This document shows positions 2,783 through 54,813 of a stretch of DNA of 64,000 bases, piece by piece. The number at the start of each line of letters is the position of its first letter. Position 1 is the stretch's first letter. The DNA comes from Trifolium pratense. Lineage: Eukaryota > Streptophyta > Magnoliopsida > Fabales > Fabaceae. Below the pieces are notes generated by a model that was given only the letters and a program-made list of their open reading frames with translations, was not told the DNA's origin and ran no database searches. The translations under genes and the position numbers were made by a program. The DNA is taken from assembly GCF_020283565.1 (NCBI RefSeq), contig NC_060059.1, positions 45,962,572 to 46,026,571 on the forward strand, written 5' to 3'.

Positions 2783-3374
2783 TATATATAGGAGAGTGGT
2801 TTTCTCGTTTGAAACTTTACAGTTTCTTACTTACTTCCTCCATCGCCTTAGCTTTTCTGACTCTGATCCTTCCGGTGATTCACGTTTCTTTCGCTACTGT
2901 ACTTCAAGCATCCTTTTTCGTCTCCATTAATCAAGTAAGTGTTTTATCCTTAAATTTTGCTTTGGATTTTGCTTTAGCTGTTTGATTAAATAGGACGTAG
3001 TTAGTTCATGTAGTAGGTAGTTTGTAGTGTGTTTTCCATGTAGCATGCGTAGTTTTTTGAGTGTTATAGGTAGTGATTAGCACACTTTTCCCCCTAAACA
3101 AGGATTTTTACGCGTTTGGAGGCGAAAATTCGCTGTCTTACCAACTGACTTTTGGGTTTCCGCTTAAGAACAACGTCGAGCATATCATGCATTTCGTGCC
3201 CGGTTGTTTTATGAACTTAACGTTCGGAGGGGTAGCCCTGCCCCCTCTTTAGTTTCTCTGCGTAGTTTTCTAAGTTTATGTCGAGATCCTCGCCCTTTCA
3301 CTTGATTTGGCAGTGGAAGGGTGGATTTAAATGTCGAATTCACTTTTCCTTCCTCTGCTTTTTCAGGTTCTTGA
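2783..3374 (+). promoter_or_regulatory. TATA box and 5'UTR intron of the Tat-A antisense gene
   Basis: CTATATATAGGAG at about 2783-2795 is a good TATA box for plus-strand transcription. A splice donor (CAA|GTAAGT, intron from 2935) and a pyrimidine-rich acceptor (TTTTTCAG, ending 3366) give a 432-bp intron just before the ATG at 3375. The last 80 bases of the intron match the equivalent part of Tat-B (CCCTTTCACTTGATTT, GTCGAATTCACTT). Conservation between two copies supports a real intron. Confidence 0.65.
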
Positions 3375-19698: not shown

Positions 19699-22600
19699 TG
19701 TTAACTAACATTGAGGATTCATAGAGAGAAAACATAAAGTGGCTAGGGTTTTCATTAGGAATAATCAAAATTAATAGAGTACAAAATAATAGAATGGTAT
19801 AAATACTAGAGTATAAAAGACTAAACTACCCTTAATATAATATATTATTTATATATTATGTAACATCCCCCCTCAAACTCATGATGCATTAATAGGAAGC
19901 ATCGAGAGTTTGTCAATCAAGAAATGAAAACGTTTAATAGAATGAGTTTTCGTGAACAAGTCAGCAATCTGCAAGGAGGAAGAAACAAATGGTAAAGTGA
20001 TAGTGCCATGTTGAAGATGATGACGAGTGAGATGACAATCAATCTCAATGTGTTTGGTGCGTTCATGAAAGACCGAGTTATGAGCAATTTGAATGGCACT
20101 TTTGTTATCACAATACATAGGAGTAGCTTTAGACAGAGAAACACCCATATCAGAAAGAAGCCAACGTAACCACACTATCTCCGAAGTGGTAGTGGCCATA
20201 GCACAGTACTCAGCTTCTGTTGAAGAACGAGATATAATGTCTTGCTTCTTGCTCTTCCAAGATATAAGAGAATCTCCTAGAAAAATACAAAAACCTGTAG
20301 TAGACTTGCGATCAGTGGGATCACCAGCCCAATCTGCATCAGAGTAAGCATGTAACTCCAAAGAAGAAGATGAAGGAAAAAGAAGACTCTTAAATTGAGT
20401 TCCTCGAAGATAACGAAGAATGCGAAGAACAGCTGCCCAATGCACTGTAGTAGGAGAAACAACAAACTGACTAACAATGTGCACTGCATAAGCAATATCT
20501 GGTCTGGTAATAGTAAGATACACCAAGCTGCCAACCAAAGTACGATACAAAGTAGGATCCGATAAAAGAACGCCATCAGAGGGAGCATATTTCACATTAA
20601 GCTCAAGAGGGCTATCTGCTGATCTAGTATCAGAAATACGAGCTTGTTCAAGAATGTTGGCAATATATTTAGATTGTGAAAGAAGATAACCTCTAGGGGA
20701 GTATGCAACCTCAATCCCCAAAAAATATCGAAGAGTGCCTAAATCCTTCATCTCAAATTGTTTAGCTAACTGTAATTTCAACTCATCAATCCCATTAACA
20801 TCATAACCTGTAATAATCATATCATCAACATATAGGGATAATAGAATATGACCATGAGAATTGGTTCTAAGAAATAAAGCAGAATCATGATCACTAGAGC
20901 GGAACCCAAGAGATGTAATTACGGTAGAAAACTTCTCAAAACAAGCTCGTGGAGCTTGTTTCAGACCATATAAAGCTTTCTTCAACTTACACACTTCTCC
21001 CTTATTATGAGAAATACCTGGTGGAGGTACCATATAAACTTCCTCCTGAAGATCACCATTTAGAAATGCATTTTTAACATCCATTTGAAAAATATTCCAT
21101 TGACGAACAGAAGCAACAGCAATAAGAGTACGAATAGTAGTCATCTTGGCCACAGGAGCAAATGTTTCTTCATAATCCATGCCATACTGTTGAGAGAAAC
21201 CCTTAGCAACAAGACGAGCTTTGTATCGCTCTACTGACCCATCAGATTTGGTTTTGGTCTTGTATACCCAACGAGACCCAATAGCACGTTTTCCTGGTGG
21301 AAGAGGTACTAAATCCCAAGTATTTGTCTTATGCAAAGCAGCAAGTTCCTCTGCCATAGCCTGCTGCCAAAGAGGATCAAGAATAGCTTCTTTATAGGAA
21401 GATGGCTCAGACAAATTATGAATAGAGGTTAGAAAAGAGGCAAAAGAAGGAGAATAAGTGGAATAAACAAAATCAGGCAATTGAGTAGACTTACGATCAC
21501 GACAGGGATAACGAGGAGAAGGGGCTGTGGATGGCGTAGGATCAACAGTCGCAAGAGGTTGTTGGATAGCCGTGGGGACAGAGGGAGCATTTGTATCTGG
21601 AGTGGCAATAGTGTCAGTCCTGCAATTCTCAATAGTACAATCACTAGAAATATCATCATCAAAGGCAAAAGGATCAATATGAGCAAGCTCAGACCTGGTA
21701 GGAGTATGCGAATCAGAAGAAAGAGAGTAAAATGGTATGTGCTCAAGAAACACAACATGACGAGAAACATACAATTTTTTATTAATAGGATTATAACAAC
21801 GATAACCCTTTTGACCATCCCATAACCAAGAAAAACACATATTGCAGAGCGAGGACACAATTTACTACGTTCAACTTGTGGAAGAAGAACAAAACAAGTA
21901 GAACCAAATACTTTTAAATAAGAATAATCAGGAGCATGACCATACAAAACCTCAAATGGAGACAAACCTGAAGTGATAGATGATGGAATTCTATTAATGA
22001 CATGAACAGCTGTACGAATTGCTTCACCCCAAAATTCACTTGGAACTGCTGCAGACAACAAAAGAGAACGGGCAGTTTCAACAATATGACGATGCTTTCT
22101 TTCGGCAACGCCATTTTGTTGAGGAGTATCGGTACATGAAGTCTGGTGAATAGTACCATCATAAGCAAGCAACTCAGAGAATTTATTAGAAGTATACTCG
22201 CCACCTTGATCGCAACGAAAACACTTTATCACAGCATTATGTTGAGTTTTAACCGTAACACGAAACATACGATAGATATCATAAAATTCTGAACGATTTT
22301 TCATAAGATAAACCCAACAATAACGACTATAATCATCAATAAAACATACATAATATCTAGATCCACCTTTGGTAAAAACCGATGATGGACCCCATACATC
22401 AGAATGAACTAAATCAAAAGGTACATTAGAAACAGAAGTACTTTTATTAAAGGGCAAAGCAGAAAATTTTGCAAGTTTGCAACCACAACAATCAGAAATA
22501 TCTCTAGTTTGCAACTTTCCTAAAGCTCCGGTAGAAGCCAAGTACTTTAATCTAGAGGCAGAAACATGTCCAAGGCGAGAATGCCATAAATAAAAGCTAC

Positions 22601-24582
22601 TAGAAGACGAATTTAAACGAAAAGATGATAAGTCAACAGTCGAGGGAGACATTGAGGCTGCAGTATCTGGAACTCTCAACTCATCCAAAATATAAAGTCC
22701 CCCTTGTCTACGGCCTGTCCCAATCTTCCTCCCGGATTGTTGATCCTGCACATAACAAGAAGTGGAAGAAAATACAACTGAATAACCAGAATCACATGAT
22801 TGACTAACAGAAACAAGACTCAAAGTGAGGTTAGGAATATAATATACATTAGATAAAGACAAGTTAGTTGTGGAGACAGACCCAATGCCTGCTAGTGGCA
22901 TAGGAGTGCCATCAGCAGTCAAGACCGACATACATGATTTAGGATTTAAGGACACAAATGACTTATGATCATAGGACATATGATGTGATGCACCGGAATC
23001 AAAAATCCATATGGAAGAAGATATACCTGATAAGCTAGAGGGATTCAAACCTTTGATAGAGGAGGCAGACATAGCATGTGGCTGAGTTGCGAGAAACTTT
23101 TGAAACTGCTCAGCAAGATCAAATACATGTGAATTAGTCTCAGATGGGTATGCAGAACCAATACCAGAACCAACGGACGGAGGAGCAACAATAGAAGAAG
23201 TAGCAGCAGCAACATTAGATGAGGGAGGCTTAAAATTTTTTCTTCCTGCTTTCATCAATTGCGGACAATTTGATTTCCAATGCCCTTTTTGCTTGCAAAA
23301 AGCACATTCATCAATACCAACACCAACCCTCCCTTGAGGTTTTCCTTTGTTAAAAGGAGCAGCAAAGACGGATGGAGGAGATGTATAAGTTTCTTTATCC
23401 AAATGCGAAAGAGAGTGAGACTTGAGTCTAATTTCTTCTGCCAACAGTTCATTAACAACCGAGTCAACATTAGGAAGAGGAGTACGATGTAGAATACTCC
23501 CACGCAAGACCTCAAATTCGTCATGAAGAGCCATCAAAAATTGAACTAATCGTTGCTCTTCTCTATGGTCAAGGTATGCTTTGACACCTTTTAATTCAGC
23601 GGGTTCCATGAGAGCCAATTGGTCCCACAAATTTGTCATAGTCGAATAAAATTCTTGAATGCTCATATTATTTTGCTTAAGAGCTCTAATGTCACTTTCC
23701 AACTGATAACGTTTAGCAAAATTAGACTGCTTATACAACCGTTCCAAATGGTCTCAAACCTCTTTAGCAGTATCGTATTTTGCTAATTGCATACCTATTG
23801 ACTGAGAAACAGAATTATTGATCCAAGTAATGATTTTCGAATTACTAACCTCCCATGTATCTAACTCTTTTGCATACTTTGCTTCATCTTTTTTATCAGT
23901 GGGCTTAATAGAGGTTCCATCAACATAACTTCACACCCTTTTTCCTTTCAAAAAATTTCTCATTACATAACTCCAATAAGGATAATTTGGTCCTTTCAAT
24001 TGGACACTAATAGATTGAAGAGAATCATCTTTATCACTAGCCATTGCAATAAACTATGAAAGAACCAAAGGGAATCAACAATAAAAAAACTATTGCCAAA
24101 GAGAAGTGCACTCACAAAGATTTCCAAGTCTTCCACGTAACAAATTGCACACTAACAGAGAGAACAAAGTGTTCCAAAATACACTCTTAATACTAAATCA
24201 AAAACAAAGTGCCAACACTTAATTGTAAACAAACTAACATAGAGAACAAATCAAACCCACCAAACCCACCGAACGCGTAACAAACAACTTTCAATTGAGA
24301 AACATCAATCCAAAAAAAGAAGAAATCCAGGTAGAGAACAAATCAAACCTTATTGCAGAGATTGATTATCAAACTTCTAAGTTCTAATAGAATCAACCAA
24401 GCTCTTTGATACCATGTTAACTAACATTGAGGATTCATAGAGAGAAAACATAAAGTGGCTAGGATTTTCATTAGGAATAATCAAAAGTAATAGAGTACAA
24501 AATAATAGAATGATATAAATACTAGAGTATAAAAGACTAAACTATCCTTAATATAATATATTATTTATATATTATGTAACAA
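19699..24582 (-). mobile_element. Ty1/copia retrotransposon with 167-bp LTRs
   Basis: LTRs at 19699-19865 and 24416-24582 both start TGTTAACTAACATTGAGG and end TATGTAACA. Flanking duplications ATACG (19694-19698 and 24583-24587) are perfect. Four substitutions separate the LTRs by eye (2.4 percent), on the order of one million years if a typical plant LTR rate applies. Primer-binding site TGGTATCAAAGAGC (initiator Met tRNA type) is at 24402-24415 on the minus strand; the polypurine tract GAGTTTGAGGGGGGA is at 19866-19880. The short LTRs suggest the Ale or Ivana group, not resolved here. Confidence 0.92.
19879..24044 (-). pseudogene. Copia gag-pol polyprotein, nearly intact but broken
   Basis: It starts at the ATG at 24044. 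Domains in order: gag with CCHC knuckle (CAFCKQKGHWKSNC, near 23.3 kb); aspartic protease (IFDSGASHHM); GAG-pre-integrase and integrase (HSRLGHVSASRL, CCGCKLAK, then DQGGEYTS and an E-containing PQQNGVAERKHR); reverse transcriptase (VKNAFLNGDL and YVDDMIITG, near 20.8 kb); RNase H (SDADWAGDPTDRKS, RSSTEAEY). Disruptions: two TGG-to-TGA stops in gag (about 23.93 and 23.75 kb) and one frameshift near 21.84 kb between integrase and reverse transcriptase. One usually conserved Trp in the RT (PRAWFEKF in relatives) reads Cys here. All core motifs survive, so inactivation is recent, in line with the LTR divergence. Confidence 0.92.
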
Positions 24583-38610: not shown

Positions 38611-39491
38611 AAATTTTTTTTCTACCCCAACAATTGTCAATCTACCCCAACATTAATTTTGAATGGACGAATTTACCCTCATATATATATAAACTAAAAC
38701 TTTGAAGAAATTTTTTCTATTTTTTTTACCTGAACACTTTGAAAAAAAGTGTGTAGGTATGTAAAATTTTTCCAAATTTATTTTGTTACCTACACACTTT
38801 GGAAAAAAGTGTTCAGGTATGTAAAATTTTTCTAATTTTTTTTTTGTTACCTGAACACTTTGAAAAAAAGTGTGTAGGTATGTAAAAATTTTCCAAATTT
38901 ATTTTGTTACCTACACACTTTGGAAAAAAGTGTTCAGGTATGTAAAAATTTTCTAATTTTTTTTTGTTACCTAAACACTTTGAAAAAAAGTGTGTAGGTA
39001 TGTAAAAAAAAATTACTTTTATTCCAAAGTAATAGGTAACAAAATAAATTTGGAATTTTTTTGTTACCTATTACTTTGGAAAAAAGTAATTTTTTTTTTA
39101 CATACCTACACACTTTTTTCCAAAGTGTGTAGGTAACAAAATAAATTTGGAAAAATTTTACATACCTACACACTTTTTTTCAAAGTGTTTAGGTAACAAA
39201 AAAAAATTAGAAAATTTTTACATACCTACACACTTTTTTTCAAATTGTTTAGGTAACAAAAAAAAATTAGAAAATTTTTACATACCTGAACACTTTTTTC
39301 CAAAGTGTGTAGGTAACAAAATAAATTTGAAAAAATTTTACATACCTACACACTTTTTTTCAAAGTGTTCAGGTAAAAAAAAAATTAGAAAAAATTTCTT
39401 CAAGGTTTTAGTTTATATATGAGGGTAAATTCGTCCATTCAAAATTAATGTTGGGGTAGATTGATAATTGGTGGGGTAGAAAAAAAAATTT
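38611..39491. mobile_element. Fold-back element (881-bp palindrome of short tandem repeats)
   Basis: Outer arms match over about 90 bp (38611-38700 against 39403-39491; CTACCCCAAC… and its complement). Inside each arm, roughly 60-bp units (TTACCTGAACACTTTG / AAAGTGTGTAGGTATG) repeat four to five times, inverted around a centre near 39045. ORFs here, such as 39147-39422, are translations of the repeat. Confidence 0.75.
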
Positions 39492-42758: not shown

Positions 42759-42980
42759 TAGATAGATAGATATTCTTCTCTTCTACCACATGGCATGCTT
42801 GCAGTAATCCTCTCTTCTCCTTGATTTGATAATTAGTGTAATAATATTCACAATTATTACATGTTGACCGACCTAGCATTCCACCATATCTCAACTCCTT
42901 AATTTATGCTATCAGTAAAAAATGATTTATTGATTGCATATTTTAAAATTTTAAATTTTAAATTGGTAAACATTTATATC
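42759..42980. other. Intergenic DNA left of Tat-B
   Basis: AT-rich sequence without features. The last five bases, ATATC (42976-42980), are the Tat-B target site. Confidence 0.5.
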
Positions 42981-43569
42981 TGATCTAACCTGTTGATCAG
43001 AAAGGTTGATGGCCGGTCCGTTGAGCAAGCGTCCACACCGAAGGGGGGGTTTGTACCTGCAGGTGCTCCGATGCCTAAGTCAGCAAGGTGAACAAGAGAG
43101 ATACAAAGAAGAGAGAGAAAGTATAGTGAGAATGAATCAGAATACCTGGCTCTCCTGTATAGGAGAGCTTATATAGTGCCCCCAGCGCTGGGCCAAAGGT
43201 TGGTCTATTGGGCCTGGATAACCGGCCCAATAGGCTCAACTGCCAGGATAGTCCCTGTATCGTAGGGGAAGGCCGTTATTTGCTTCTATCCTGGTTGGAG
43301 TCGTTCCGCTATTGGCGGGTAATGGATGACTCCGTGACAGATGCGGTTGGATAATGGAGCACGTGTTAAACGTGCTGCTTAGCTGTTAAGCTAAGGCTGA
43401 ATTAGTCATCGCGCATGGATAGACGAGCACGTGATTAGCGTGGAGCTAATCCGTTATGTCGAGCAGGACACGTCATTGGCTGACGTGTCGGGGGGGTCTC
43501 CCCTTGTTGGGCCATGCCCCAAATGTCGGGCATAAGTGATTGGGCCAGCTCTTGGCCCAGTCCAGAACA
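42981..43569 (-). repeat. Left (3') LTR of Tat-B
   Basis: Begins TGATCTAACC, ends GTCCAGAACA. Minus-strand TATA box CTATATAAG at 43169-43177, next to a perfect short palindrome (GCTCTCCTGTATAGGAGAGC, 43150-43169). Same length and sequence as the right LTR by eye. Confidence 0.95.
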
Positions 43570-43584
43570 GGAGCCCCCCAAGTC
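43570..43584 (-). other. Polypurine tract of Tat-B
   Basis: On the minus strand CGACTTGGGGGGCTCC directly precedes the 3' LTR. It is the expected position of the plus-strand primer. Confidence 0.7.
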
Positions 43585-44312
43585 GTTGCTCCTAGCTATA
43601 GGAGTAATGACTTAAGATCCATGCCCGTGTGTCGAGGAGTTGTTTTCCTCGCCAATCCTAGGAGGACTTCATAATTCATGGATTATGACTGTTGCTTGTT
43701 TGCGCGAGGAGCGCATTTGTATGTTGCTCGTAAATTCCTCCTTGGCACGACGAGGAGAATTATCCAAGGAGGAAGCTTCCTTTTGCTCGTGACGCGTGCC
43801 AGGATGTCCGTGGAGGACATTACGGGGAAAGAATTTGCCTTTATAGGTCATTTGCTTTTACGTTCCTCGACGGGTTGTCGAGGAGGTGTTGTGTTAAGTG
43901 CATCTCGTTGATGCTGCCTGTTTTTGCGGGCATGTTTATTTATGAAGATTGTTTCAACTGCCCGCGATTTTCGCTTGATCGCGATGTCGAGGAGATAATT
44001 ACGTTGGTGATAACGATGAGCCCCTCGAGAGACGCGTGGTCTGTTCGATGGGATGTGAAAAGACAGACGTTTCGTCTGATCTTGACACGTGTTACCTTTA
44101 TTAGAAAGTGTAATTATGACTTGGGGAAGCGTGATGGTTGCTTCGTTTTACGAGGAGGCGTGTAAGCCGTTGGATCCATCGTGACCTTTGGTTTTTAACA
44201 AGATTGAATCTTAGCCATTTGATGACTTTGATCGTGGCCGTTGGATTTGATCAACGGTTGTGGAGCGATGGGGCGCATCATTCTGTGATGCAGGTGCAGG
44301 GTCTTGGCAAGT
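43585..44312 (+). other. Upstream region of the Tat-B antisense gene
   Basis: No supported ORF. GC content is higher than in the surrounding DNA, with many TCGAGGA/CCTCG motifs as elsewhere in the element. It probably holds promoter elements for the plus-strand gene. Confidence 0.45.
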
Positions 44313-45368
44313 CTATAAATAGAGGAGAAGCATTTCATTTTCACTTTTCTCTTCTCTCTCCATTTACGCTGCTGCTGCTGCTTGCTTATTTGCTCCTTTC
44401 TCAGAGTTCAAAGTTCCCAAAGCTCCACTTTTTCTTCTTGACAAAGGTAAATTCTCTTTGCTTTTACCTTCGTTGTTGTGTAGATTTATGCTTCTACTTT
44501 ATGCCCATTTTGTTTGTGTTAGATCCGGGTGTTTGCATTCCTGTATTGTGTTTGGTAGTTGTAAAGCTTTTAGTTTGGTGAGGTTTAGTGTTTGATAGTG
44601 GCAAGACCATCACTAAACGCCACTTTCTGCTGTGATTTTAGGCGTTTGAAACTCTGGGTTCCGCGAGGAACACCATGAGTGTTGTTTGAATGATGTTGAA
44701 TTTTCTGGAAAAATGATGGATATTGATGCGTTTCTGGAAAATGGTGATGAACACCATGAAGATGATGAACAGCATTCATAGATTTCATAGATTTCTGGAA
44801 TTCTATGTTTTTCGTCGGGGAGGAGAATGTTGTTTCCTCTCCCCGTTTATTGTAGCAAAAGCTAGGTTAGTTGATCCTTATGTCGGGGAGCTTCTCCCCG
44901 TTTTTCGTCTTCGCGAATATTTTGAGTGTCCTTTGGAACATTATGGATGTCGGGGAGCTTCTCCCCGTTTTTAACATAAGAATTTAGCTGGAAAATGAGT
45001 TTGTAAAAACTCTGTGTCGGGGACCTTCTCCCCGTTATTTCGCTGGGAAATTTGTGGATAAATGAGTTTGTAGAAAACTCTTTGTCGGGGAGCATCTCCC
45101 CGTTTTTAACTTTGGATTTTACGCAAATTTATTTGCTTTTAAGTGTCGAGCCATGTCTTGTGTCGGGGATCGTCTCCCCGTTTTCAGGCTTTGTTACATA
45201 GTTTCTCCCCGCTTCCTCTGTTTTGTTTGTTTGCCATTTTGATAAGGGCTTTTGGTCGGGGACAGCGTCCTCGTCCTAATCTACACCCTTTCACTTGATT
45301 TGCGGTGAAAGGGTGGATTTGATTATTGTCGAATTCACTTTATTTTCGCTGCTTTTCAGGTACTCAAA
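44313..45368 (+). promoter_or_regulatory. TATA box, leader and 5'UTR intron of the Tat-B antisense gene
   Basis: TATA box CTATAAATAG at 44313-44322, followed about 25-30 bp later by a pyrimidine-rich start region. A donor (AAAG|GTAAAT, intron from 44447) and acceptor (GCTTTTCAG, ending 45359) give a 913-bp 5'UTR intron ending nine bases before the ATG. Tat-A has the same arrangement with a 432-bp intron. The intron contains a hairpin repeat array (44815-45180). Confidence 0.7.
44815..45180. repeat. Array of hairpins in the antisense gene's 5'UTR intron
   Basis: CGGGGAGCTTCTCCCCG and close variants occur at 44884, 44951, 45018, 45086 and 45164 (spacing 67, 67, 68, 78), plus a longer-looped form at 44815-44845. 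Each can form a 7-bp stem. The spacers also resemble one another (GAGTTTGTAAAAACTCT), so this is a degenerate tandem repeat of about 67 bp. Confidence 0.85.
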
Positions 45369-47449
45369 ATGTCTGACGTGGAGGAAGTAACGGGGAGCCA
45401 AGCAACGTCGAAACACAAGCTGGTCGACACCATTACTGACCCAGAGCTGGATTGGGTTGCGCCCGAGCCCCGGGGGATTGCTTCGACGATTACCGCCCAG
45501 GATCCGCGGCTTTTTACTGTTGTCGAGGAAGCTGGTTCGGGGAACTGGGAGGTTCATATGCCCGCCGAGGGGGAACGGGTTTGTTCGTCGTACGCGGGCT
45601 GCAGCTTTACTATGTACGAGATGGCGTTCAAGGAGTTGGGATTTCGGCTGCCCTTCAACGATCTAGAAGCCGGGATTTTTGGTCGGCTAAAAGTGGCTCC
45701 TTCCCAGCTTCATCCGAATTCACTAGCGTTCATCCGGGCATATCAGATCCTTTGTCGGTATCTGGAGGTGGAGGCTACTGTTGCCCTATTCTTTTATATC
45801 TTCCAAATCCAACGTCAGAAAGTCGGGGATCGGCAGGGTTGGATTTCCTTGAAGCACCAGTCGAGCAAGATATTTAGGATGTTCGTTGAGTCTGCTCGGG
45901 GCTTCAAGGAGAGGTATTATGTGGTGAAGCCGGTGACGGAGTTTGCTTTTGATTCTCTGCACATGGAGAAGCCCGTGTTCCTCGAGGATGGGTCTCCTCA
46001 GTTGGACGAGGAAGGGGAGCAAGTAGTGGAGTGGGTTCTTCGATTCCCACTGTCGTGGTCGTCGGAACATTTTGTACTGCGAACCGACGAGTATCTGACG
46101 CCTGTCGAGGACCTGACCCCGGCGGAGATGGCAGGCTTTGAGAAGCTTAAGGCCTACGTAGATGGCTTTAAGCCTTGTAAAGTTATAACCAGTCTAGGGG
46201 ATGTTGCCGTAGACAAGCATGGTAAACCGAGGATCGAACCTCGTTTTGTAAATACAAAATTATTACTGTCGTGCAAGACTGTCTCTGCCGAGGACACTTT
46301 GTTGGGTATCTGTTTTAATTCCTGCCCGTTTTTTACTTGTTTTACATTCAGCATTTGATGTTTTGAGTGTCTCCCCGTGTTTCTGACCACGTTTGTGATT
46401 TTGCAGGTAGAATGGCTGATCTTGCTTCCGAGCTGATGAGGATAGCTGCTGAGCAAAAGGGGGAGAAGTCAAAGAAAAAGGCGAGGAGGGCCAAGCCAAC
46501 CATTTTGATGGGCGATCAGGGTGCTTCGGGGAGCGTCTCCCAATCTTCCCCGGTAGGCAGTTCAGCTGGGACTCCGGGTGGTCGTTCGAAGAGGCAGCGG
46601 GAGGAGCAGATGACGCCTATCGTCGACTTGTCAGAGGGGGACGGTGGCTTCGTTCTCCCCGCATGTTTGAGCGACCAGAAATACTTCGACAAGAATCCCC
46701 TCCAGGTGCCCGCTTCAGAGAAGGCTTTTATACTGGGCGCTTCTGCATCTGCCCGACAGAAGCAGCTTAATGAGGATGTTGCTGCTGTCATCCGTCTGGC
46801 GGAGACAGCCTTGGTGCTCAATGAAGGGGGACCAACTCTCGAGGCTGAGAAGCTGGCCGCTAAAAACAGGAAGCTGGAGGCTGAGATTGCTTTGTTGGAA
46901 AATGATCTGCTCGACCTTAGGAGCAAGCAGGAAAATTATTTCAAGAATATGGAGGAGGCCCGACTTACTGCTGAGCAGCTGGAGAAGACGAATAAGGTGC
47001 TCGAGGACCTGAAAGTCAGCAGTGCCGAGCAGAGGGGTAAGCTGATGGAAGAAGTGGCTATGTTGCAAGCCAAGTGTGCCCCTCTTGAGGATGAGAAGGA
47101 GGAAACTCTCAAGTTTGTAACTCGAGGAGACTTGGTGAAGGAAATCAAAAGGCAAGGGGGCTTGATGTTGGCGAGTATGGTGCACGGGTGGAAGAATGCG
47201 ATCGCCCAACTCAGGGTTGTGAATGCCGAGCATGGCTTGATTACTGATGGCATTCACAAGCTCAAACGGGTTGAGAACGGGCAGATTGTTATTCCTGAGG
47301 AGTATAAGCAAATGGAGCTCGAGGAGGAAAAGTTGGATGAAGAGGCGGTTGATGATGAGGACGAGGAGGATGAGGAAGTCGAAGAGGAGGTTGTCGGGGA
47401 GGAGAGGGCACCGGAGGGCAACCCAGAGGGTCATGATGAAAGCTCCTGA
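45369..47449 (+). CDS. Tat antisense protein (aORF), two coding exons
   Basis: Exon 45369-46305 and exon 46407-47449 join in phase 1 across a 101-bp GT-AG intron (donor G|GTATCTG, acceptor TTTTGCAG), giving about 660 residues with no internal stop. The N-terminal half carries the plant 'putative gypsy type transposon' domain (FRLPFNDLE, then APSQLHPNSLAFIRA, then LFFYIFQIQR). The second exon has a basic stretch (KSKKKARRAKP), a long coiled coil of about 150 residues, and an acidic tail (DDEDEEDEEVEEE). A nuclear protein that dimerises through the coiled coil is plausible but unproven. It is transcribed opposite to gag-pol and ends 0.73 kb from the gag-pol stop. Antisense ORFs of this class are known in Tat elements such as Grande and Retand; no role has been established that I know of. 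The in-frame start at 46367 is inside the intron, so that ORF alone is not the product. Confidence 0.8.
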
Positions 47450-48181
47450 TCCTCCCCGGTTTTTATTTGGGCCTGCGCGCCAATGACTTGTACTTTATTC
47501 GTCTCTTTTGTTTCATGACAATTTGCTTTTGGTGGCCTGCGTGCCCGGTTTTTGTACCATTCGGACAAATGGGTTTTTATGCCCGGTATTTATAACAATG
47601 ATTGTTTTATTCATCCTGCTCGTCTATTCTATCTCCTCGTTTGTATGTTTAAATTATTGTTTTCGTTTTTCCTAAGTTATGCCTGCGTGGAATATGCATG
47701 TCTTTATGCTTGCTCGTTTTTAACTTAACAACTTTTTGGTTTTGATATTCGTGTACTTGCTCGACATTGTTGTATGCCTGCTCGACAAAACCGTTTTTAT
47801 ATTTGTAAGTTTTTTGTTGCGAGCGCGTTTCGTCGAGGAGGTCGTCCTCGGATTTAACTTAGAAAGTTTAGGGAACTAACTAAGCGCCTAGAGTTGTTTT
47901 CTGAGGCTAATACGGACGCCGACACGTTGTTGTGCCCGCCCCCGCGGCTTGAACTTCCCATCGCGAGCTGGGCGTTAAGCCTTGGCACGAAGACGAGGAG
48001 CTTGTCTCAAAGGTCATCCTTGTCGGGGAGACGCTCTGCCCTTCCTGAGCTAGAGTATCTCCTTTTCAGTTATTTGGATCGAGCACGTGTGCCCGCGTGC
48101 TTTCCGTTGTCGAGGTGTCGGGCTCGTTGCTGGAGGATCCGAGCAGCCTTTTAGAAGTGTTTTTTTTACTTTGGCAATAAC
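47450..48181. other. Shared 3' region between converging genes of Tat-B
   Basis: 732 bp without a supported ORF, between the TGA of the antisense gene and the gag-pol stop. If either transcript runs past its stop by a few hundred bases, the two would overlap as complementary RNA. Confidence 0.6.
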
Positions 48182-51100
48182 TTAGCTATAATATTGTTTT
48201 AATTTTTGGGCGTTCCAAGGTCGAGGAAGTTTCTTTCCTCGAAGATCCTCGAGATAATACGCGCCATTTTCTGTTTTGTCAATGACGCGATATGGTCCTT
48301 CCCAGTTGGCCGCCAATTTACCATCCTGGGAGTCCTTAGCATTTCGTCTTAAGACGAGGCTGCCCACTTCAAATTCTCTTTTGATGACTTTGACGTCGTG
48401 TCGGGCAGCTATTTTTTGTTTAAGGGTGGCTTCCCGAAGGGATGCCCCCGTGCGGATCTCTTCGACGAGATCAAGCTCTTCACGGAGAGCTTCGTCGTTC
48501 ATTTCTTCTTCGAGCGGTTGCTCGGTTCGGCGAGATGGCTCGCCCACCTCCACGGGGATGACTGCTTCTGTTCCGTATACCATTCTAAATGGAGTCTCCC
48601 CGGTTGTGGAGTGTGGTGTTGTGCGATAGGCCCAAAGGACGCTTTCGAGCTCCTCGACCCATTTCTTTTTGTTCTGGTCCAATCTTCGACGTAGGCCGCG
48701 CAGGATTACTCTGTTGGCGGCCTCGGCTTGCCCGTTAGTTTGGGGATGTTCTACGGAAGTGAAATGTTGCTTAGTCCCCAGGGCAGCGAGGAAGTCTTGG
48801 AAACCTTTGTCCGTGAATTGTGTCCCGTTGTCCGTGACGACGGCTTGTGGTATCCCAAACCGGCAGAGTACGTCGCGTTTGAAGAAACGGAGTATCCTGA
48901 ATGACGTTATGTCGGAGAGAGGTTCAGCCTCTACCCATTTGGTGAAGTAGTCCACGGCGACTATTAGAAATTTATTTTGGTGAAGTCCCTTTGTGAAGGG
49001 GCCAAGTATGTCCATGCCCCACCAAGCGAAGGGCCATGGTGACGACAAAGATTTGAGTTCGTGGGGAGGAGCCAGGTGCATGTCCCCATGTCGTTGACAT
49101 TTGTCGCACTTCTTCACATGGTCCTTTGCGTCTTGCTGCATGGTGGGCCAGTAGTATCCTGCTCGGAGAGCTTTTCTGGCCAGCGATCTTCCTCCCAGGT
49201 GCTGGGCGTTGATCCCCTCGTGTACCTCGCGCAGGATGTAGTCGACTGTTTCCTCGTCGACGCATTTTAGGAGTGGGATTGAGAATCCTCTTCTATATAA
49301 CTTTCCGTCGAGGACGACATATGCGCATGCTCGACGCCTAATTGTTGCTGCCTCTTTCTGATCGTCAGGGAGGGTTCCATTCGCGAGGAAGTTGTACACG
49401 GGGGTCATCCAGCAATTTTGGTCGCCAATGACATTTATGTCGAGGACGTTGCTCGCCTTCTCGATGCTTGGTCGGGGGAGTACTTCCTGAATGACGGATT
49501 TGTTTCCGCCTTTCTTTTTTGTGCTCGCCAGTTTAGACAGGATATCTGCCCGTTTGTTGTGTTCGCGTGGAACGTGTTGCACCTCCACGGATTCGAACTT
49601 AGTGATTTTTTCCTTCACTAATGCTAGATATTCAGAGAGATTATCATTTTTGGCTTGATATTCTCCCAATACTTGTGAGGCAACAAGTTGTGAGTCTGTG
49701 AAAATTTTTACTTCTTTTGCCTCCATGTCCTCGGCCAACCGTAGCCCTGCTAGGAAGGCTTCGTATTCTGCTTGGTTATTTGATGTCGGGAAGGATAGTG
49801 CTAGGGACACTTCGATGATGATCCCATTTTCGTTTTCCAGGATAATTCCTGCTCCTGCTCCCGTGGAGCTTGACGCTCCGTCGACGAATATTGTCCATTT
49901 GTCTGCCTCGCTTGCTGAGGAGGCTGGACTCGTCATTTCGGCCACAAAGTCTGCTAGGACTTGTGATTTTAGCGCTTTCCTGCTTTCGTAACGAATGTCG
50001 AATTCGGAAAGCTCGAGGGACCATTTGAGCATCCTGCCCGCCATATCTGGTCGACCAAGCAATGATTTGATGGGTTGGTCGGTTCGTACTATGATCGTGT
50101 GTGCTAGGAAGTAGTGACGTAGTCTTCTTGCTGCGTTGATCAAGGCGAGGGCCACCTTTTCGATTTGTGTATATCTGAGTTCGGGCCCCTGTAGGGCCTT
50201 GCTCGTGAAGTACACTGGTTTTTGTCCTTCCGTTGTTTCGCGGACAAGGGCTGCGCTGACGGCCTCGGATGCGACGGAGAGGTAGATGTATAACACCTCC
50301 TCGACATCCGGGCGCGAGAGGACTGGGGGTTCGGACAGGGCCTTCTTAAGATGTTGGAGGGCCTGCTCGCACTCGTCCGTCCATTCGAACACAGCTTCTT
50401 TCCTTAGTAATTTGAAAAGCGGTAATGCGTGTTGAGCAGATTTTGCTACGAAGCGAGACAATGAGGTCAGCATTCCGTTCAGGGTTTGTATGGATTTTTT
50501 GTTGCTCGGAGTTGGGAGCTCCGTAAAGGCACGACATTTGTCGGGGTTGGCTTCGATTCCTCGTTCTGTTAGGTAGAATCCGAGGAACTTTCCTGCTCGT
50601 ACCCCGAAGGTGCACTTTTCTGGGTTGAATCGCATGTTGTGTTTTCTGGCCTGCTCGAAAACCTTACGTAAGTGGGCGGTATGGTCGATTTCCTCATGGG
50701 ATTTTACGATCATGTCGTCCATGTAGACTTCGAGCATGTCGCCTATTTCTGCCCGGAATACTTTGTTCATCATCCGCTGGTATGTAGCACCAGCGTTTTT
50801 TAGACCGAAGGGCATTACGTTGTAGTAATAGTTGCCCGACTCGGTCATGAAAGCTGTTTTTCCCCTGTCGGCCACAGCCATTGGGATTTGGTTGTATCCT
50901 GAATATGCATCCATAAAAGACAATAATTTAAAGCCAGAAGAATTATCGACTAATTTATCAATGCAAGGTAAAGGATAGGAATCTTTAGGGCAAGCCCTAT
51001 TGAGATCGGTATAGTCAACACACATGCGCCATTTTCCATTAGATTTTTTAACTAGTACAACGTTTGACAACCAGGTAGTGTATCTGGCTTCAGAAATAAA

Positions 51101-54100
51101 ATTTGCCTCTAGGAGGTCTTTTACAGCTTTTTCAGCAGCCTCCGCTTTTTCGGGAGACTGCCTACGCCTACGTTGCACTACGGCACTAGCAAGTGGGTCG
51201 ACAGTAAGTTGATGACAAGCGATATTTGGATCCAGCCCGGGCATGTCGGCAGCGTGCCATGCGAACAAATCAGCATTTTCTCTAAGGCAGGCTTTCAGCT
51301 GCTTCCTCGCCAACTCGGGGAGCCCTGTCCCAATCTTGACTCCTTTTTCTGGATCCTCGCCAAACTGGACTATCTCAAAGTCTCCATCTGGGATGGGGCG
51401 ATAATGCTCTTTGCTCGCCTCGTCGTCCTCCTTCTCCTCCTTCCTCAGCTTTTTCTCCTCCTTATGCTCTTTCTTGGAGGTGCGGCTGTCAAGATCAACA
51501 GAGCTCACACTTGGACCGGGCAGACTTGGTGGTGCTTCCGGGGATGGTTTTGGTGGTGTTTCCGAGGAAGGCTTTGGCTTCTTTGCTTCAGGAGCTTTGC
51601 CGATGAAGTTGTTGCCTTTGGATGCTGCGTCAAAGCACCTCCTCGCGGCTTCGATGTCCCCGTGCAAAGTAGCAACCTGCCCCTTATGAGTGTAATATTT
51701 CATCTTCAGGTGGGCGGTGGAGGGGACAGCCATCAGGTCTGCTATAGCCGTCCTGCCGATGATGCACTGGTAGAGGCAGGGGCAGTCCACGACCAAGAAT
51801 TTCACCCTGATTGACTTAGCAGTCTCTTCGGAGCCAAAGGTGACGATCAGGTCGACATAACCCCAAGGCCTAGTAGTTGCTCCATTGAATCCTGTGAGGT
51901 CTGAGCCCATGTATGGGGTGAGGTGTGTCTCGTCCAGCTGTAAGGTCCTGAACAAACTGGCGTACATGATGTCGCAAGAGCTCCCCGGATCGATGAGGAC
52001 CCGACGAACGTCCATGTTGGCCATGTCTGCCCGGACGAGGAGGGGAATTTGGAAATTGGCTGTCCCACCGGGCAGCTCTTCTCGATAGAAGGCTAAAGGC
52101 ATTGATCGCCCCTTCGCCTTGTCCAGCGTTGCGTTCATATTTGAGGATGTGTTGATGAGATCCTCGAATTTTCTTTTTATTGATCCGACGGTGTGCTTGT
52201 CCATGTGACCGCCGGATATGACGAGTGAGTCTGTGAAGTAGTCCCCCGTGCTAGGTGTAGGACCAGTATAGGTGTCCCCAAAGTTGCTGGGGATATTAAA
52301 ATCTTCTGGCCGGGATACGCTCATGGCGATCTGCTTGGTGCCACTCGGCCCGGCTGGTGGGGGAACTACCTCCTCGACGGCGCGAGTCTCCGCGGCCTCT
52401 GGTCGAGGGTCATTGTTTCTCTTTACGAACTCTCGTAACTGTCCGTTTCTTATCAATATTTCGATAGCATCCTTCAGCTGGATGCAATCGTCGGTCCTGT
52501 GACCATAACTCTTGTGGTATCTGCAATACCTATTCTTGTCTTGGCCGGGCTTCAGGGGAGTCGGCTTGGGCTGTTTTACATTCGCTCTGTTAAACTCAGA
52601 GATGTGAACCTCAGCAAATATTTCTCCCCGTGATTTGACGAGGGGGGTGTATGTGGCGAATGTGCTTGGAGGGCCACGAGATTCACGCCTGTCGCCCCTC
52701 CTTCTGTCTCTGCCCCTCTCGCCGCCCCGATCGCCGCCTCTATCGTGTCCCCGGTCGCTTCCCCTGTCGTCGTGCCTGTGGGAGGGCTCACGGGCAGGGT
52801 GGCTGCTTCCAGGTCGGGCAAGGCGAGCGACATCAGCTGCCTGGACCTCCTCGTAGTCGATGTACTTTTGAGCTTTTAGGAGGAGGTCGTCCCAGGTGGG
52901 TGGTTTTTCTATGCCCACAGCTTTAGCAAAATCGCTGCCCGGGCGAAGGCCCCTCTGCAGCAAGTATTTCTTCATGTCGTCGGTCGTTTCGACCTGCACA
53001 GCCTCTTTGTTGAATCTCTCGACGAAGTTGCGGAGAGTTTCGTCTTCAGCTTGGTATATGGCCTCCAAGGCATGCACAGTCTTTGGGTGCTTGCGGGAAG
53101 CGGTGAAGTGTCTGGAAAACTGTTCAGTAAGATCCCTCCATGAATGGATGGATTGAGGGGGCAGGCTTTGGTACCATGCCATTGCTCCCTTTCTCAGCGT
53201 GGTTGGGAACAGTCTGCACCTAATGGCACCGCTAATGTTCCTGAAATCCAGGTTCGCGTTGACATTGGCTATGTGATCGTCGGGGTCGGTCAAACCATCA
53301 TACGCGGGGAGCGTAGGAGGTCTCTCGAAACCCTTTGGAATATGTTTCTTTAAGATGTCTCTGGAAAGAGGGCATCGGGGATCGCCCTCGTCGCTCCCGT
53401 TGGGAGAATGGTCCTCGGAAGACCGGGGAGAATAGTCGCCGGGCATGGGCGTTGGACTGCGAGATTTGCGAGGACGGTAGCTGCCCGACGCGCCATGCTT
53501 GGCCATGTTCGTCAACCCTTGAGGTGAATGGCGGCGCGGAGCTTCGTGTTTTCCTTTCTTGCCCGGGGAGAGCCTACCCTCGCGATGTGGAGGAGTACGG
53601 TCCCTCTTCCGAGGAGTAACTTCGACCCTCTCTAAGTCGGGGCGTCGATGTTTGACGGCCGCCGGTCGAGGAGGGGAAGGATTAGCCTGGTGTCTCCGCG
53701 GGGGAGAGTTGGTCTTTCTGCGACGCCGGCTTTTCTCCAGCGCGGCGATTCTTTCGCTCTGCTCGTCCAGTCGACGATTTTGAGCCTGCATGGCCTCCGT
53801 TGTTTGTTTGAGGGCAGCGATCAAGGCTGCGACCTCAGAGTTGGCCAAGACGGCGGGCTGTTCGGCGTTGTTTGCCGGAGCTTCTTGCTTGAATTGCGGG
53901 CGTTTGCCCATCCGACGATCGGTTAGGATCTCGACGTCTTCTTCATCGGAAGAGAGTGAGGCCTCCCGTCCGTCGCGGGAGTCGGTTTCTGGACCGCGTG
54001 TCACGGTGGTATCGTCACGCACCGGTGATAGCACGGTGTTATTCTGCGGCGGCGGAGAGGATGGAACGTTGAGCGCGTTGTCGTCGCCGGCGTCGGTGTT

Positions 54101-54124
54101 GAGTGGCTGCGAAGAACTGGCCAT
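48182..54124 (-). CDS. Tat-B gag-pol polyprotein, intact (1980 aa)
   Basis: A single frame from ATG 54124 to the stop at 48182. Approximate residue positions: acidic then Arg/Ser/Pro-rich gag N-terminus (1-260); Retrotrans_gag core (about 280-400, GAMAWYQSLPPQ at 316); CRYHKSYGHRTDDC (538) in place of a classical knuckle; protease with DPGSS (715); reverse transcriptase with YMDDMIVKS (1137); RNase H (about 1240-1360); second, archaeal-type RNase H (from 1410: IFVDGASS, NNQAEYEAFL, FTDSQLVAS); integrase zinc finger (HLGG…CDKC, to 1671), DDE core (VDYFTKWVEAEPL, VVTDNGTQFTD, NGQAEAANRVIL), and GPY-type C-terminus ending KLKQYYS, without a chromodomain. The dual RNase H marks the Tat lineage. 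All catalytic residues I can check are present. The ATG sits 77 bp inside the primer-binding site. Confidence 0.96.
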   Translation of the reverse strand: MASSSQPLNTDAGDDNALNVPSSPPPQNNTVLSPVRDDTTVTRGPETDSRDGREASLSSDEEDVEILTDRRMGKRPQFKQEAPANNAEQPAVLANSEVAALIAALKQTTEAMQAQNRRLDEQSERIAALEKSRRRRKTNSPPRRHQANPSPPRPAAVKHRRPDLERVEVTPRKRDRTPPHREGRLSPGKKGKHEAPRRHSPQGLTNMAKHGASGSYRPRKSRSPTPMPGDYSPRSSEDHSPNGSDEGDPRCPLSRDILKKHIPKGFERPPTLPAYDGLTDPDDHIANVNANLDFRNISGAIRCRLFPTTLRKGAMAWYQSLPPQSIHSWRDLTEQFSRHFTASRKHPKTVHALEAIYQAEDETLRNFVERFNKEAVQVETTDDMKKYLLQRGLRPGSDFAKAVGIEKPPTWDDLLLKAQKYIDYEEVQAADVARLARPGSSHPAREPSHRHDDRGSDRGHDRGGDRGGERGRDRRRGDRRESRGPPSTFATYTPLVKSRGEIFAEVHISEFNRANVKQPKPTPLKPGQDKNRYCRYHKSYGHRTDDCIQLKDAIEILIRNGQLREFVKRNNDPRPEAAETRAVEEVVPPPAGPSGTKQIAMSVSRPEDFNIPSNFGDTYTGPTPSTGDYFTDSLVISGGHMDKHTVGSIKRKFEDLINTSSNMNATLDKAKGRSMPLAFYREELPGGTANFQIPLLVRADMANMDVRRVLIDPGSSCDIMYASLFRTLQLDETHLTPYMGSDLTGFNGATTRPWGYVDLIVTFGSEETAKSIRVKFLVVDCPCLYQCIIGRTAIADLMAVPSTAHLKMKYYTHKGQVATLHGDIEAARRCFDAASKGNNFIGKAPEAKKPKPSSETPPKPSPEAPPSLPGPSVSSVDLDSRTSKKEHKEEKKLRKEEKEDDEASKEHYRPIPDGDFEIVQFGEDPEKGVKIGTGLPELARKQLKACLRENADLFAWHAADMPGLDPNIACHQLTVDPLASAVVQRRRRQSPEKAEAAEKAVKDLLEANFISEARYTTWLSNVVLVKKSNGKWRMCVDYTDLNRACPKDSYPLPCIDKLVDNSSGFKLLSFMDAYSGYNQIPMAVADRGKTAFMTESGNYYYNVMPFGLKNAGATYQRMMNKVFRAEIGDMLEVYMDDMIVKSHEEIDHTAHLRKVFEQARKHNMRFNPEKCTFGVRAGKFLGFYLTERGIEANPDKCRAFTELPTPSNKKSIQTLNGMLTSLSRFVAKSAQHALPLFKLLRKEAVFEWTDECEQALQHLKKALSEPPVLSRPDVEEVLYIYLSVASEAVSAALVRETTEGQKPVYFTSKALQGPELRYTQIEKVALALINAARRLRHYFLAHTIIVRTDQPIKSLLGRPDMAGRMLKWSLELSEFDIRYESRKALKSQVLADFVAEMTSPASSASEADKWTIFVDGASSSTGAGAGIILENENGIIIEVSLALSFPTSNNQAEYEAFLAGLRLAEDMEAKEVKIFTDSQLVASQVLGEYQAKNDNLSEYLALVKEKITKFESVEVQHVPREHNKRADILSKLASTKKKGGNKSVIQEVLPRPSIEKASNVLDINVIGDQNCWMTPVYNFLANGTLPDDQKEAATIRRRACAYVVLDGKLYRRGFSIPLLKCVDEETVDYILREVHEGINAQHLGGRSLARKALRAGYYWPTMQQDAKDHVKKCDKCQRHGDMHLAPPHELKSLSSPWPFAWWGMDILGPFTKGLHQNKFLIVAVDYFTKWVEAEPLSDITSFRILRFFKRDVLCRFGIPQAVVTDNGTQFTDKGFQDFLAALGTKQHFTSVEHPQTNGQAEAANRVILRGLRRRLDQNKKKWVEELESVLWAYRTTPHSTTGETPFRMVYGTEAVIPVEVGEPSRRTEQPLEEEMNDEALREELDLVEEIRTGASLREATLKQKIAARHDVKVIKREFEVGSLVLRRNAKDSQDGKLAANWEGPYRVIDKTENGAYYLEDLRGKKLPRPWNAQKLKQYYS

Positions 54125-54200
54125 GATGAAGTTTCTTGAGAGGTTTGGTTTTTTATCTTTGTTTCTTTGAGGAAAGGTTAAAGAATGGGGAAGAACTCAG

Positions 54201-54218
54201 TCCCCACAGACGGCGCCA
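54201..54218 (-). other. Primer-binding site of Tat-B
   Basis: On the minus strand TGGCGCCGTCTGTGGGGA, one base from the 5' LTR. TGGCGCC…GGGGA fits a tRNA 3' end (closest to tRNA-Asp, imperfect in the middle). Confidence 0.75.
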
Positions 54219-54219
54219 C

Positions 54220-54808
54220 TGATCTAACCTGTTGATCAGAAAGGTTGATGGCCGGTCCGTTGAGCAAGCGTCCACACCGAAGGGGGGGTTTGTACCTGCA
54301 GGTGCTCCGATGCCTAAGTCAGCAAGGTGAACAAGAGAGATACAAAGAAGAGAGAGAAAGTATAGTGAGAATGAATCAGAATACCTGGCTCTCCTGTATA
54401 GGAGAGCTTATATAGTGCCCCCAGCGCTGGGCCAAAGGTTGGTCTATTGGGCCTGGATAACCGGCCCAATAGGCTCAACTGCCAGGATAGTCCCTGTATC
54501 GTAGGGGAAGGCCGTTATTTGCTTCTATCCTGGTTGGAGTCGTTCCGCTATTGGCGGGTAATGGATGACTCCGTGACAGATGCGGTTGGATAATGGAGCA
54601 CGTGTTAAACGTGCTGCTTAGCTGTTAAGCTAAGGCTGAATTAGTCATCGCGCATGGATAGACGAGCACGTGATTAGCGTGGAGCTAATCCGTTATGTCG
54701 AGCAGGACACGTCATTGGCTGACGTGTCGGGGGGGTCTCCCCTTGTTGGGCCATGCCCCAAATGTCGGGCATAAGTGATTGGGCCAGCTCTTGGCCCAGT
54801 CCAGAACA
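54220..54808 (-). repeat. Right (5') LTR of Tat-B
   Basis: The promoter-bearing copy for minus-strand transcription, with TATA box CTATATAAG at about 54408-54416. Identical by eye to the left LTR over 589 bp. Confidence 0.95.
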
Positions 54809-54813
54809 ATATC

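Follow-up and report, generated by a model that had tools for sequence, protein, structure and literature searches.

Does the strand opposite gag-pol in a Tat-clade retrotransposon of Trifolium pratense carry separate antisense ORFs, or a single spliced gene with a promoter and a product of its own? The stretch of DNA analyzed here (64,000 nt, hereafter the window) contains two diverged Tat copies, Tat-A and element B, in both of which a first-pass annotation had predicted such a gene. Its premise, that antisense ORFs in Tat elements are known, agrees with the excerpted text of two sources reporting antisense TRP28 ORFs (PMC11963269, PMC7264820). The former, as excerpted, reports them for 97% of the Retand clusters that were recently active and calls their role unknown, and an excerpted survey gives the PF04195 domain in 23% of the Retand elements that it covered (PMC6317226).

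Our reading, to which we assign a probability of roughly 0.78, is that the locus is an antisense accessory gene of a Retand-lineage Tat retrotransposon, predicted from the DNA to be spliced, protein-coding, and driven by its own internal TATA promoter. Comparison of copies shows that the predicted anatomy (TATA box, ATG-free leader, 5′UTR intron, TRP28 exon, phase-1 intron, and coiled-coil exon) is kept across many of them. The predicted transcript would run from about position 44346 to beyond 47449 and would be spliced, and its 659-aa product, probably nuclear, would help or regulate the element's own cycle.

The Host Retrotransposon

The features of element B that define the host retrotransposon are the following.

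42981–54808: element B, an intact Retand-type Tat retrotransposon with identical 589-bp LTRs and a 5-bp TSD
42981–43569, minus strand: 3′ LTR, 589 bp, TG...CA ends, identical to 54220–54808
54220–54808, minus strand: 5′ LTR, identical to 42981–43569
48182–54124, minus strand: gag-pol, single frame, 1980 aa

The LTRs of element B are identical and have TG...CA ends, the element is flanked by the TSD ATATC (42976–42980 and 54809–54813), and its 5′ LTR adjoins TGGCGCCGTCTGTGGGGA, a stretch that we take, from its position, to be PBS-like; these features together indicate that element B was inserted recently. The domains of its gag-pol follow the order gag, RT, RNase H, RVT_3, integrase, with RVT_3 (aRH) at 1414–1532 flanked by RT_RNaseH (1275–1375) and the integrase H2C2 domain (1622–1679). 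A second RNase H-like domain (aRH) between RH and INT is described as a Retand trait, common to Ogre, in the excerpted part of PMC6317226. The domain order is thus consistent with Ogre/Retand, and the presence of an antisense TRP28 ORF favours Retand, so that, on these two sequence traits, element B fits the Retand lineage (Tat clade, Ty3/gypsy). Its POL–3′LTR region (43570–48181) measures 4.6 kb and carries a PF04195 ORF on the opposite strand, much like the Retand elements with antisense TRP28 ORFs in the excerpted text of PMC11963269, where the mean length of this region is 4,616 bp. No relative of the element B gag-pol was found in viral_contigs.

Within intron 1 of element B, positions 44948–45111 form a ~67-bp tandem repeat whose units hold a palindrome like CGGGGAGCTTCTCCCCG; tandem arrays in the POL–3′LTR region are a known habit of Retand elements, and in element B the array lies inside the 5′UTR intron. 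Elsewhere in the window, minus-strand frames at 19879–23747 lie in two overlapping pieces and presumably resemble Ty1/copia gag-pol, judging by their motifs, and 38721–39397 is taken up by arrays whose ~60-bp AT-rich units contain palindromes similar to ACACTTTGAAAAAAAGTGT, recognized by eye.

Anatomy of the Antisense Gene

The predicted antisense gene of element B consists of the following parts.

44314–44325, plus strand: TATA box TATAAATAGAGG, 745 bp inside the 3′ LTR edge
44346–44446, plus strand: predicted exon 1, ATG-free leader, 101 nt, its start placed at TATA + 32
44447–45359, plus strand: predicted intron 1 (5′UTR intron), 913 nt, AAAG/GTAAAT ... TTTTCAG/GT
45369–46305, plus strand: exon 2, the TRP28 (PF04195) exon, residues 1–312 plus one base, ATG at 45369
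46306–46406, plus strand: predicted intron 2, phase 1, 101 nt
46407–47449, plus strand: exon 3, with an NLS-like basic stretch, a long coiled coil, and an acidic tail, stop included

The interval given in the first-pass annotation, 45369–47449, takes in exons 2 and 3, with the promoter and leader located upstream of it. Several of its structural claims were borne out: GT...AG ends are present at all four proposed introns, TATA boxes are found in both copies (at 44314 in B and 2783 in A), the 5′UTR intron ends just before the ATG (in B, intron 1 ends at 45359 and the ATG stands at 45369), and both intron-2 junctions are phase 1 and fall at the same aligned residue. The T content of intron 2 is 48% in both A and B, compared with 20–26% in the flanking exons. 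Intron 1 contains 21 ATGs in B and 7 in A, and the leaders (101 nt in B, 120 nt in A) contain none.

The corresponding parts of Tat-A are as follows.

2783–2794, plus strand: TATA box
2935–3366, plus strand: predicted intron 1, GT...AG ends
3293–3371, plus strand: hairpin element, 82% identical to that of B over 82 columns (E = 7e-14), ΔG −30.2, z −5.0
3375–4365, plus strand: exon 2 (TRP28), open, PF04195 E = 1.4e-7
4366–4481, plus strand: predicted intron 2, GT...AG ends
4482–5332, plus strand: exon 3, broken by an early stop and a later frame break, as compared by eye with P0106

The three-exon plan that had been ascribed to both copies can be followed in Tat-A through intron 2, but its exon 3 is broken; P0106, used for the comparison with the Tat-A type of exon 3, is a related annotated protein with an unbroken frame. 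Within the window, the complete antisense gene is found in B only.

It had also been proposed that splicing fuses two ORFs. The spliced exons of element B do give one 659-aa frame, but an open fusion alone is unspecific: over the ranges tried, 89 GT-AG pairs in B and 72 in A produce one, and the proposed intron-2 pair ranks 5th (B) and 8th (A) by a crude consensus score. With so many solutions, the open frame was rejected as proof of splicing, and the intron-2 pair was therefore settled by comparison of copies.

Conservation among Copies

B-type copies from the same genome were drawn from 317 candidates, of which 40 were scored and the best 30 taken, the window's own copy included; they were chosen by closeness to exon 2, which biases the set toward intact copies. 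The A-type set comes from 141 candidates and comprises 20 of 40 listed copies plus that of the window (21 in all). The exon-2 ATG, a 937-nt exon 2, the GT donor, and the CAG/GT acceptor are present in 30/30 B copies (best 30 of 317), and in this same best 30 of 317 candidates intron 2 comes in seven lengths (95–106 nt), the full fused frame is kept in 23, a stop lies in exon 2 in four, and an early stop lies in exon 3 in three. The intron-2 GT donor, its AG acceptor, and the exon-3 ATG are found in all 21 A-type copies (20 of 40 listed, plus the window); exon 2 is 991 nt long in 12 of the 21, and 10 of those 12 are stop-free. Among 62 protein matches, 23 are T. pratense proteins of 654–663 aa, whose junction residues agree with the predicted splice; Trifolium pratense also supplies the closest proteins. 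The conserved three-exon plan of the first-pass annotation is thus supported both by the copies and by those public gene models that share its intron-2 junction.

These comparisons make it very unlikely that the TRP28 region and the coiled coil are two separate antisense ORFs with no splicing between them. Separate antisense ORFs are what a published survey lists, in its excerpted part (PMC11963269), exon 3 does have its own ATG, and intron 2 forms an open, in-frame stretch in P0041, P0050, and P0115. However, intron 2 is T-rich (48%) and indel-bearing whereas exon 2 is indel-free in the 30 B copies (best of 317), the intron-2 donor and acceptor are retained in 51/51 copies, and a retained intron 1 would place 21 ATGs ahead of the gene.

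Four gene models (P0028, P0029, P0030, and P0036) drop the TRP28 core and join varied upstream points to exon 2 before (K)(V/I)GDRQ or IVGERQ, which reflects either a common prediction artefact or a cryptic acceptor within exon 2. Recursive splicing at CAG/GTA was considered and set aside, since several models imply AT rather than GT after the acceptor (DNM type, as deduced from the proteins).

Selection on the Coding Exons

The ratio dN/dS in recent copies, a check proposed in the first-pass annotation, is not near 1; ω lies well below 1 in both exons. For exon 2 we used all 30 B copies (best 30 of 317) with stop codons skipped, and 426 of 435 pairs fell within the dS limits; here and below, pairs of copies are not independent. 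Median ω was 0.31 for the 4 youngest pairs (dS 0.005–0.05), 0.135 for 32 pairs (dS 0.05–0.15), 0.084 for 129 pairs (dS 0.15–0.4), and 0.071 for 261 pairs (dS 0.4–1), with pooled values of 0.313, 0.156, 0.098, and 0.103 in rising dS classes. For exon 3 (23 intact B copies, 245/253 pairs within the dS limits), the medians in rising dS classes were 0.182 (4 pairs), 0.186 (10), 0.165 (66), and 0.211, and pooled ω ranged from 0.174 to 0.289. The 45 pairs of A-family exon 2 had a median ω of 0.112, and dS among them is high (median 0.86). Judged by these ratios, both coding exons are under purifying selection in lineages that multiply, and exon 2 is under stronger constraint than exon 3, the four youngest pairs excepted.

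We disregarded the pairwise ω between A and B (0.25; pol 0.056), since dS between them is saturated. Intron-2 divergence in B is 0.150, compared with 0.242 at exon-2 4-fold sites, so intron 2 offers no clean neutral yardstick; the intron (46306–46406 and its copies) may be constrained, or shared among copies by recombination.

An alternative use of the locus would be as RNA, with the antisense transcript forming dsRNA with the genomic RNA, triggering siRNAs, or serving as a sponge, and the protein incidental. The antisense mRNA and the genomic RNA are indeed complementary in the 3′ portion of the latter, and the possibility is named in the excerpted text of a review (PMC7264820), but a median ω of 0.07–0.31 in both exons and all dS classes shows that selection acts on the protein, and we regard an RNA-only role as highly improbable.

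Predicted Protein

The PF04195 (Transposase_28) profile matches exon 2 of B with E = 2.4e-7 (31.3 bits) and that of A with 32.0 bits, against a curated cut-off of 26.2, and it matches 43/43 members of alignment A4 at E up to 10. Structure prediction, which the first-pass annotation had put forward as a check, gave an AlphaFold model of exon 2 with a pTM of 0.80 and a mean pLDDT of 81.5, with residues 1–23 and 34–56 below 50; we are fairly confident, on this model, that exon 2 folds as a domain. The model of P0002, a close relative, has a mean pLDDT of 70.3 and a pTM of 0.50, and in its exon 3 a low-confidence basic stretch (318–379) and a helix (456–535) can be distinguished. An NLS-like pattern occurs in 20/31 representatives. 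A fold search with the TRP28 domain alone returned no solved or viral match, which does not imply a new fold; the whole-model search returned rows of long helices, nearly all in residues 454–620, and a PDB sequence search returned mostly generic coiled-coil chains.

Predicted Promoter and Leader

A TATA-like box is present 927–1246 bp before the exon-2 ATG in 27/30 B copies (best 30 of 317) and in 10/10 A-type copies examined. A simple rule chose a donor in 22 of the 27 B copies (none in five), which gave 20 distinct leaders, and ATG is absent from all 20. The mean p-distance among the B leaders is 0.50 (about half of sites), with 0.01 for the closest pair. Shuffled B leaders have a mean chance of 0.55 each of being ATG-free, with a product of 10^-5.5 if they are independent, and 28 of 669 overlapping windows of leader length in intron 1 are ATG-free. 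The A leaders, taken from the window and from those 9 of 20 fetched copies that lie on the plus strand, share TATATATAG and the donor CAA/GTAAGT in 10/10 cases and are ATG-free over 108–126 nt. ATG-free leaders are what is expected of a real 5′ UTR under scanning ribosomes, and they therefore back intron 1 independently of the protein.

The B leaders (L017–L046) differ at half of sites while the hairpin downstream is nearly fixed. Promoter and leader seem, on these alignments, to be quickly replaced among subfamilies.

A Hairpin at the Intron-1 Acceptor

The acceptor of intron 1 lies at the base of a long hairpin.

45286–45364, plus strand: conserved hairpin element of B, in which the acceptor UCAG/GU (45356–45361) pairs with ACUUGA (45293–45298)

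In B, the plus strand folds at −32.6 kcal/mol (z −7.7) and the minus strand at −13.8 (z −2.1); in A, the values are −30.2 kcal/mol (z −5.0) and −17.1 (z about −2), respectively. The best DNA match between A and B in their 3′ internal regions is noncoding and falls on this end of intron 1 (82% over 82 columns, E = 7e-14), compared with 68% for a 137-bp match in the TRP28 exon. All 51 copies (30 B, best of 317; 21 A) contain the stretch, which in each is more stable on the plus strand, with energies of −23.2 to −36.2 (plus) and −5.0 to −17.1 (minus). Mean p-distance in B is 0.041 for the hairpin, 0.150 for intron 2, 0.118 for the adjoining upstream 300 bp of intron 1, and 0.242 at 4-fold sites, the hairpin being below the 4-fold sites in 424/435 pairs and below upstream intron 1 in 408. 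For A (12 copies), the hairpin, intron 2, and 4-fold sites give 0.020, 0.238, and 0.316. Hairpin divergence is thus ~6-fold (B) and ~16-fold (A) below that of 4-fold sites.

Fold energy alone was rejected as proof of uniqueness because other windows of the region fold as well: among non-overlapping windows scanned in 5-nt steps, folds equally strong occur elsewhere in 1/875 (B) and 3/688 (A) on the plus strand, and in 2/907 (B) and 4/720 (A) on the minus strand. Covariation was likewise too weak to serve as proof. A plain MAFFT alignment gave a covariance term of +1.13; a blastn-based A/B alignment has 17 shared pairs with no double changes, and B's 28 pairs are, in A, unchanged in 20, changed on one side in 3, and lost in 5 (2 mismatches, 3 gaps). 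A structure-guided alignment of 24 distinct sequences has 25 shared pairs with 595/600 cells paired, 1 double-change and 6 single-change pairs, and an RNAalifold term of +0.64, which is no net support. With covariation this slight, the evidence for the hairpin structure comes from its energy, its position, the asymmetry between the strands, and its conservation. A bistable switch between the CCCUUUCAC 5′ arm and GUGAAAGGG is also disfavoured, the forced form being 8.8 (B) and 12.9 (A) kcal/mol worse.

Translated remains of the hairpin precede the TRP28 start in P0041 (T. subterraneum) and P0164 (a JGI record), whose best matches in a comparison with the whole window are element B and then A. 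No Rfam family matched 44200–46600 at E ≤ 1. An exact 16-mer scan of viral_contigs for the hairpin gave 16 loci, one of them also with a looser pattern, and neither viral_contigs nor genome_contigs contained a match to a longer pattern.

The hairpin lies within the transcribed internal region and could instead be a signal in the genomic RNA or DNA, for packaging, dimerisation, or protein binding, unrelated to splicing; signals of the packaging or dimerisation type are often conserved. We consider this unlikely, as the RNA of the antisense gene is far more stable (−32.6 versus −13.8 in B, −30.2 versus −17.1 in A, and so in 51/51 copies), and the hairpin ends exactly at the acceptor whereas the other splice sites tested sit in weaker structure (−7 to −14).

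A Possible Second Start Codon

Exon 3 carries near its beginning an ATG of its own.

46412–46414, plus strand: conserved ATG (Met315 of the fusion), 5 nt after acceptor 2

An ATG at this distance past acceptor 2 is found in 29/30 B copies (best 30 of 317) and 21/21 A copies, 50/51 in total. Met occupies the site in 134 of 138 junction-covering proteins (chosen by rule from 186 aligned, two of them from the window) and in 32/33 representatives at 75% identity, which makes it the sole exon-3 position at 90% or more; the next best is K336 (29/33), and exon 2 has 33 positions at that level. Seven gene models start exactly at Met315, some of them from short contigs, including P0070 (769 bases) and P0179 (1,384), in which the upstream exons may just be missing.

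One model, P0038 (LOC123896533), was placed on C7, with exon 3 at 47601834–47602889 and the first 81 residues read exactly; its exon 3 also matches three other loci. Joining the leader, up to CAAACAG/GTAATG, to acceptor 2 reproduces the first 139 residues of P0038 (the readable part), and the intron so defined encloses a stop-free 937-nt exon 2 with its ATG. P0038 thus consists of leader plus exon 3, and at least one public annotation already joins the leader to acceptor 2. The model may be ab initio, since its CDS extends past the TATA box on the upstream side, a part that a transcript starting at this box would lack.

Taken together, the exon-3 ATG (50/51) and the P0038 model suggest that the antisense gene may give two proteins by alternative splicing. 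The next most likely step after transcription would be joining of the leader either to acceptor 1, giving the TRP28–coiled-coil fusion, or to acceptor 2, giving the coiled coil translated from the exon-3 ATG, and the ratio or the efficiency would be set by the hairpin at whose base acceptor 1 lies. We propose only tentatively, at well under even odds, that the gene is such a two-product unit, in which the ATG-free leader is spliced to acceptor 1 (fusion) or acceptor 2 (coiled-coil protein) and the acceptor-1 hairpin acts as the regulator, to which the gene's product may itself bind, whereby the element would tune the two forms.

A hairpin that merely eases intron-1 splicing is the more cautious reading. 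The same spliced gene would then make the fusion protein only, Met315 would be an ordinary residue, and the hairpin would act as a "downstream stem" that shortens the distance from branch point to acceptor for efficient removal of intron 1. The hairpin joins UUGAU (within ACUUGAU), a possible branch point judged by the consensus, to the AG. Most junction-spanning models are fusions (136 pass the coverage rule, not all of them checked by eye), and yeast introns use such stems, which have been proposed, in the excerpted text of PMC12350175, to ease splicing. However, Met315 alone reaches 90% in exon 3 (next K336, 29/33) while neighbouring codons vary, seven models start at Met315, and P0038 skips an intact exon 2. 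We hold a fusion-only gene to be quite possible, at somewhat less than even odds.

Relation to Known Systems

The survey of antisense TRP28 ORFs in Retand elements scores, in its excerpted part, single ORFs of at least 600 bp, whereas the gene in element B is predicted from its sequence to be spliced and multi-exonic (PMC11963269). The word "intron" has 0 occurrences in the main text of that paper, and the leader, introns, fused coiled coil, hairpin, and second start codon were not found in its excerpted text. In a literature search, in which sources were covered in part, no antisense TRP28 gene was found described with introns, an ATG-free leader, a hairpin, or a second start; key papers of 2011 and 2013 fall outside its scope, so that absence is unproven. 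Within this scope, the acceptor-1 hairpin and the conserved exon-3 ATG with its leader-to-acceptor-2 gene model are newly described here.

The maize Grande gene23, compared by description in the excerpted PMC7264820, resembles the gene in B in being antisense and lying between pol and the 3′ LTR; it is transcribed from its own promoter, which would match the predicted promoter of B, and the antisense product of Grande is reported to be nuclear, and no exon structure of gene23 was found in that account. The likeness to HTLV-1 HBZ is confined to the logic: HBZ, in the excerpted text of PMC1459196, is also encoded antisense in a retroelement and undergoes alternative splicing. Transcription of HBZ begins within the 3′ LTR, whereas the predicted promoter in B is internal; its TATA box lies 745 bp inside the LTR edge, which would speak against an LTR start. 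Plant LTR retrotransposons are generally without introns, with Ogre and EVADE as exceptions, according to the excerpted part of a 2025 review (PMC12786077). In Ogre and EVADE, as excerpted (PMC6317226, PMC12786077), the introns serve to make more than one product from gag-pol transcripts, whereas those of the gene in B are on the opposite strand.

This orientation offers a simple reason why introns could persist in a retroelement: antisense introns are unspliceable from the genomic RNA, so the spliceosome cannot remove them and a gene with introns survives retrotransposition. Element B, a recent insertion, retains both. Single-ORF surveys would overlook both the fusion and the leader. Antisense TRP28 ORFs thereby gain a gene model, with a predicted promoter, a leader, two introns, a 659-aa product, selection on the protein, and two candidate control points, the hairpin and the exon-3 ATG.
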